Positions 14,854 to 17,426 of a DNA stretch of 33,800 nucleotides are shown one piece after another. Made by a program: the position numbers and the translations under genes. Under the pieces are notes generated by a model, which made no database searches, was not told where the DNA came from, and worked only from the letters and a program-made list of their open reading frames with translations. The DNA comes from Thermoleophilia bacterium. GTDB taxonomy: Bacteria > Actinomycetota > Thermoleophilia > Gaiellales > Gaiellaceae. The stretch's first letter is position 1. The number at the start of each line of letters is the position of its first letter. The DNA is taken from NCBI GenBank assembly GCA_014534415.1, contig JACVRM010000003.1, positions 1 to 33,800 on the forward strand. The letters are read 5' to 3'.

Positions 14854-14878
14854 CAAGCCGCCTCGCCCTTGCTACGAT
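14850..14878 (+). promoter_or_regulatory. Predicted sigma-70-type promoter of the leuS leader transcript
   Basis: -35 GTGACA (14850-14855), 17-nt spacer, -10 TACGAT (14873-14878). Confidence 0.65.
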
Positions 14879-14885
14879 CGGCGCG

Positions 14886-14909
14886 ATGAAGCAGGAGCTT
14901 CTCGCGTAG
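14886..14909 (+). CDS. Putative 7-aa leader peptide MKQELLA with tandem Leu codons (CTT CTC)
   Basis: ATG AAG CAG GAG CTT CTC GCG TAG beginning 7 nt after the -10; upstream of an intrinsic terminator and leuS. Confidence 0.5.
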   Translation: MKQELLA

Positions 14910-14950
14910 CGCAGGGAGTGACGCGGCGGCCGCCGCGGTAGCTTCCCCAG

Positions 14951-14974
14951 GCCTCTCCGTCGAGAGGCTTTTTT
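14951..14974 (+). terminator. Intrinsic terminator/attenuator in the leuS leader
   Basis: GCCTCTC-CGTC-GAGAGGC followed by TTTTTT; ends 7 nt before the GGAGG of leuS. Confidence 0.85.
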
Positions 14975-14990
14975 GTTGCCGGAGGTCGAA

Positions 14991-17422
<2,432 letters not shown>

Positions 17423-17426
<4 letters not shown>

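Follow-up and report, generated by a model that had tools for sequence, protein, structure and literature searches.

How could a tiny reading frame with two Leu codons influence transcription of leuS through an intrinsic terminator that lies between the two? The question arises in a window (the whole stretch of 33,800 nucleotides that was analyzed) from a metagenome-assembled Gaiellales (Thermoleophilia) genome. A sequence-only reading of this locus had recognized a Leu-codon leader with a terminator ahead of leuS and had suspected a departure from trp-type base-pair logic. Both views hold after comparison of 69 curated leaders: the terminator is present and leuS lies directly downstream in all 69, and we find no mutually exclusive antiterminator, a hairpin termed H2 and the terminator being disjoint. 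The parts of the leader in the window are as follows.

A Leu-codon leader precedes leuS in Gaiellales

14873..14878, + strand: -10 box TACGAT, followed after 7 nt by the start codon
14886..14909, + strand: leader ORF ATG AAG CAG GAG CTT CTC GCG TAG (MKQELLA, stop), read from the sequence
14898..14903, + strand: Leu codons CTT CTC, the second being the critical codon, 10 nt ahead of H2
14904..14913, + strand: 10-nt spacer holding the stop codon, conserved in length and variable in sequence
14914..14946, + strand: hairpin H2, from folding of homologues and covariation
14914-14919 with 14941-14946, + strand: lower stem of H2
14922-14927 with 14932-14937, + strand: upper stem of H2
14947..14950, + strand: linker between H2 and terminator, 4 nt in the window
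14951..14974, + strand: intrinsic terminator GCCTCTC-CGTC-GAGAGGC-TTTTTT
14981..14985, + strand: Shine-Dalgarno-like GGAGG of leuS, read from the sequence
14991..17426, + strand: leuS, leucyl-tRNA synthetase, from its translation

The closest relatives of this leuS are found in Thermoleophilia and Gaiella metagenome-assembled genomes (up to 76% identity), and Rfam scans of the leader gave no match. A TANNNT motif occurs 7 to 11 nt upstream of the start codon in all 69 homologues and in none of them (0/69) at a control position 60 nt upstream. Because the -10 box lies so near the start codon, the leader transcript is probably leaderless or nearly so, its 5' end falling on the ATG at 14886 or close by.

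A covariance model built from 16 relatives and searched against 129 Gaiellales genomes found the leader in 74 of them, nearly always in single copy. Few matches were obtained elsewhere in the class Thermoleophilia, and the extra ones that we inspected are not leuS leaders. The 69 leaders were curated after fetching and inspection, and some counts below are taken over 70 homologues; most come from metagenome assemblies, and the tree is based on approximately 340 nt of leuS. A second model, made from the 69 leaders, detected nothing convincing outside Gaiellales in 397 actinobacterial genomes, its single extra match having no leuS beside it. The element was not seen ahead of ilvB or leuA in the 4 to 7 genomes examined.

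A covarying hairpin lies at a fixed distance from a rare Leu codon

In its general layout the leader ORF has 6 to 8 codons with Leu-Leu; across the 70 homologues the ORFs are 5 to 13 codons long and contain at least one Leu codon, nearly always at least two, before the stop. We defined the critical codon as the last CTY codon, which is CTT in 53 of 69 leaders and CTC in 16. CTT accounts for 4.1% of the Leu codons in leuS genes, and its excess at the critical codon is pronounced (binomial P ~3e-59); the absence of CTG at this position is partly a product of the definition, whereas the excess of CTT is not.

Between the critical codon and H2 lies a gap of 10 nt in 60 homologues out of 70, and of 9 to 11 nt in 69; the search for H2 began 8 nt past the codon, and gaps below 8 nt would have gone unrecorded for the Gaiellales family. 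Four leaders have their stop codon at +9 to +18 rather than +3 with the gap unchanged, which indicates that the conserved distance runs from the Leu codon, and not from the stop codon, to the hairpin. A ribosome shields about 10 nt beyond the codon in its A site. Thus, a ribosome stalled on the critical Leu codon would sit flush against H2. Allowing for the approximate nature of this footprint, we infer that such a ribosome would touch H2 without opening it, and that one positioned on the stop codon would unwind the lower stem.

H2 itself, which the sequence-only reading had missed, folds in all 69 curated leaders. Compensatory changes are found in five of the six pairs of its lower stem, and an independent tally from the model alignment gives the same picture. 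Measured against a tree-based null, three lower-stem pairs covary best among the non-neighboring pairs in the leader (E 0.008 to 0.09); this ranking sets aside neighboring columns that also score in the middle of H2, where the alignment is poor. H2 is joined to the terminator by a linker of variable sequence that measures 3 nt in 16 leaders, 4 nt in 31, 5 nt in 18 and 6 nt in 4 (n = 69), and the two hairpins have no bases in common.

A conserved hairpin might also be the target of a protein, for example LeuS, with the ORF playing a secondary part. The upper stem, CGCGGC/GCCGCG, is fairly conserved in the main clade, which speaks for such binding. However, it is replaced in a divergent clade (L147, L149-L151, and L154), and the Leu codons and their spacing are better conserved than the upper stem, and we consider protein recognition of H2 highly improbable.

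The terminator stem is near-invariant

The terminator stem GCCTCTC/GAGAGGC (14951-14968 in the window) requires only 0 to 2 parsimony steps at 12 of its 14 columns, compared with 23 to 26 steps at the loop columns. An exact copy is present in 62 of the 129 Gaiellales genomes and never more than once per genome, which rules out a generic Gaiellales terminator. A role for the palindrome as a DNA operator is unlikely given that the loop varies in length. The stem is retained even in leaders that have lost the ORF and H2. From the alignment, this near-invariance is the best remaining argument that one arm may have a second partner, and no such partner shows in the alignment of the 69 leaders.

Several related leaders are reduced or partly replaced. 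In L176 (from G026), L158 (from G021), and L163/L190 (from G105), other DNA takes the place of the leader ORF or of everything upstream, and the terminator stem is almost or fully unchanged; in G105 a short H2 is kept as well. In three related species (L185, L187, and L188, from G096, G097, and G087), H2 is absent, the Leu triplets stop 4 nt short of the terminator 5' arm, and the reading frame is open through the terminator, such that a stalled ribosome would directly cover the 5' arm. In a further genome (L186, from G098), a GTG placed directly after the promoter is in the reading frame of leuS, with the same terminator in between; this leuS may be leaderless, its first codons including the terminator. 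The last two arrangements suggest that a ribosome near the terminator 5' arm is the shared element.

Pairings between the leader and the terminator are not maintained

The sequence-only reading had proposed a switch through two possible pairings: one between GGAGCTTCTCG (14894-14904), which spans the Leu codons, and the terminator 3' arm CGAGAGGCTTT (14961-14971), here Leu:T3, and another between GGGAG (14914-14918) and CTCTC (14953-14957) of the terminator 5' arm, here GGGAG:T5. These segments are present at the stated positions, as is the proposed leader-ORF hairpin GAAGC-AGGA-GCTTC (14888-14901). The 11-pair run of Leu:T3 is real and reaches 12 pairs when G-U pairs are counted. Since 3.5% of dinucleotide-shuffled leaders reach at least 11 pairs, the run is modestly above chance. 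Its duplex is strong, at -15.4 kcal/mol by RNAduplex versus -13.9 kcal/mol for the terminator's own duplex. Equilibrium folding of the ribosome-free window gave probabilities of ~0.15 for Leu:T3, 0.85 for the terminator, and ~0 for GGGAG:T5. In ribosome-free homologues the probability of Leu:T3 averages 0.07 and rises to 0.99 in one leader (L104). The leader-ORF hairpin forms in part in the window and dominates in just 4 of 69 homologues.

These strengths, together with a terminator stem conserved as though one arm had a second partner, speak for a base-pair switch in which the Leu segment, GGGAG, or both act as antiterminators. Leu:T3 duplexes also exceed a genome-codon-usage null based on average leuS codon usage, but this is because CTT is preferred, and since Streptomyces, with a different terminator, prefers CTT just as much, codon rarity explains CTT. 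Covariation, named beforehand by the sequence-only reading as a test that could refute it, shows that neither pairing is maintained. Across the 69 homologues, the six Leu-codon pairs of Leu:T3 contain no compensatory change, and the sole one counted falls in weak outer pairs. The third base of the first Leu codon, the position free to vary, pairs in 35 of 69 leaders and is unpaired in 34, and the longest in-register run is just 3 to 4 pairs in 24 of 69. GGGAG:T5 fares no better, as 18 of 69 leaders have lost its third pair and 22 of 69 its fifth, with no repairing change; GGGAG instead covaries with the 3' arm of H2. Moreover, any ribosome on the ORF abolishes Leu:T3 in predicted folds. We therefore regard a base-pair switch as very unlikely, and the two pairings would amount to no more than side reactions in RNA free of ribosomes. 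On this comparative evidence, the conserved part of the putative switch is H2.

Two other pairings were considered and rejected. Pairing of the Leu codons with GGGAGC (a 1:2 arrangement) has no covariation and a probability of 0.01 to 0.04. Sequestration of the terminator 5' arm before the 3' arm is transcribed has no consistent partner among the homologues.

Predicted folds show no conflict between H2 and the terminator

We mimicked the ribosome in equilibrium folding by masking segments of the leader with an approximate footprint. In the stalled state, with the ORF and spacer masked, the mean probability is 0.997 for the terminator and 0.93 for the H2 lower stem. Masking to the position of a ribosome at the stop codon reduces the lower stem to 0.00 and leaves the terminator at 0.99. 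On average, the terminator has a probability of at least 0.9 in all states, and no antiterminator was found in any ribosome state by equilibrium folding of the homologues. No folding state sets H2 against the terminator, so secondary structure alone does not predict how H2 would affect termination.

The peak in terminator probability when a ribosome occupies the Leu codons would also suit a regulation of reversed sign, in which stalling preserves H2 and the terminator as a tandem that favors termination, with leuS expression falling when Leu-tRNA is scarce. Clusters of adjacent hairpins have indeed been proposed to act jointly as terminators (PMC8355165). Such a response, however, is contrary to the usual feedback of synthetase leaders, including T-boxes and classical attenuators, and we give it little weight.

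A candidate attenuator acting through H2

A short Leu-codon ORF is present in the 70 homologues, and an intrinsic terminator separates ORF and gene in all 69 curated leaders, as expected of an attenuator in the broad sense; an antiterminator sharing bases with the terminator, the mark of the classical trp type, was not found. Based on these observations, we propose, with a probability of roughly one-half, that the leuS leader is a ribosome-mediated, leucine-sensing transcription attenuator that acts through H2. Transcription would begin on the ATG at 14886 or close to it, giving a leaderless mRNA whose tiny ORF a ribosome would translate. When charged tRNA-Leu is scarce, the ribosome would wait on the rare CTT/CTC codons; once the second Leu codon occupies the A site, the ribosome would reach as far as ~14913, flush with H2, and H2 could form fully. 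When Leu-tRNA is plentiful, the ribosome would move on to the stop codon and open the H2 lower stem. The state of H2 would then decide termination, even though H2 shares no bases with the terminator 3 to 6 nt away. We hypothesize that an intact H2, pressed against a stalled ribosome, impedes the closing of the terminator base within the exit channel region of the polymerase, resulting in read-through and expression of leuS, whereas an opened lower stem would provide the slack for termination and turn leuS off. The sign of this response, in which stalling turns leuS on, is drawn from physiology and not from these data.

The main rival to the steric last step is one of timing. H2 could be a pause hairpin that detains the polymerase pending the arrival of the ribosome and lets it go once melted by a ribosome that has passed the Leu codons, with antitermination depending on timing and not on a steric clash. 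The attenuators of trp and his have a 1:2 pause hairpin, to which H2 would be analogous, and both the exact ribosome-flush spacing and the predicted opening of the lower stem by a ribosome at the stop codon agree with this role. But pausing leaves unexplained how stalling blocks the terminator, and overall we think it unlikely.

A control acting through H2 has difficulties of its own, as the short linkers could simply reflect compactness, the near-invariance of the terminator stem is left unexplained, and the proposal that neighboring hairpins terminate jointly (PMC8355165) also speaks against it. We are more tentative about its wider form, namely, that an attenuator can dispense with a base-paired antiterminator, a stalled ribosome flush with a hairpin controlling a non-overlapping terminator by geometry alone, and that this layout is used in two actinobacterial classes; it is possible, if on the improbable side. 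We found no precedent for a non-overlapping antiterminating hairpin in the literature searched.

Comparison with known leucine leaders

The second class is represented by Streptomyces. A leaderless leader encoding a LeuL2 peptide has been described in the reannotation of S. lividans TK24 (PMC8079986), and Seliverstov et al. (2005; PMC1262725) class the Streptomyces leuS leaders (leuL2) as classical attenuators with antiterminator hairpins. DNA for the published LeuL2 peptide is present in eight sampled genomes of this one genus. There, the leader runs CTT CTG CTT, 5 nt, an H2 with 11 bp, a linker of 0 to 1 nt, terminator, and leuS, and CTT is absent from the 228 Leu codons of Streptomyces leuS stretches (0/228). 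The two leaders have in common a Leu ORF on a reported (Streptomyces) or probable (Gaiellales) leaderless transcript, the rare CTT, a hairpin close after the Leu codons, a short linker, and a terminator directly before leuS, and in Streptomyces, too, H2 and the terminator coexist in predicted folds with and without a ribosome. The Streptomyces leader differs in having three Leu codons, an 11-bp lower stem, a distance to H2 of 5 nt and not 10, and another terminator sequence (UCCCCUC/GAGGGGA), and the model from the 69 leaders detected no sequence homology between the two. The 5-nt gap in Streptomyces counts against the proposed control through H2.

With the classical attenuators of Enterobacteria (trp, his, leu, and pheST), the Gaiellales leader shares a leader peptide with regulatory codons, hairpins, and a Rho-independent terminator; unlike them, its H2 and terminator are disjoint. 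The T-box (RF00230) leuS leaders of Firmicutes control the same gene and also end in a terminator, and the 5' strand of H2 (14913-14926 in the window; consensus AGGGAGCGAACGCGG) resembles the T-box sequence AGGGUGGNACCGCGG. Unlike a T-box, however, the Gaiellales leader has neither the tRNA-binding UGG, which is missing from the bulge in the alignment, nor a stem I/specifier or Rfam match, and T-box matches are rare in the order (3 of 101 genomes). We therefore reject a T-box origin and treat the resemblance as likeness only. The LEU element of actinobacterial leuA likewise places a Leu-rich leader peptide before a leucine gene; as described in PMC1262725, it acts by a pseudoknot and Shine-Dalgarno sequestration, in which the Leu codons pair with the Shine-Dalgarno sequence, and has no terminator, and the intrinsic terminator between ORF and leuS argues against membership of the Gaiellales leader in that family. 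A separate leader ORF lies upstream of leuA in Gaiellales leuA operons (L201-L204). Just ahead of its TAG it encodes a hydrophobic stretch of Ile, Leu, and Pro, an inverted repeat (CTCCCCCTCTAGGGGGAG) spans the stop codon, and a T-run is absent; by its sequence, this leader looks like the LEU-element type.

With fixed distances from ribosome to hairpin and from hairpin to terminator in 69 natural variants, together with natural deletions, the idea is directly testable. If H2 does control a terminator lying wholly outside it, competing base pairs are no prerequisite for attenuation, and many leaders dismissed for want of an antiterminator would deserve re-examination. The family would also carry leucine control of leuS beyond Streptomyces to Gaiellales.
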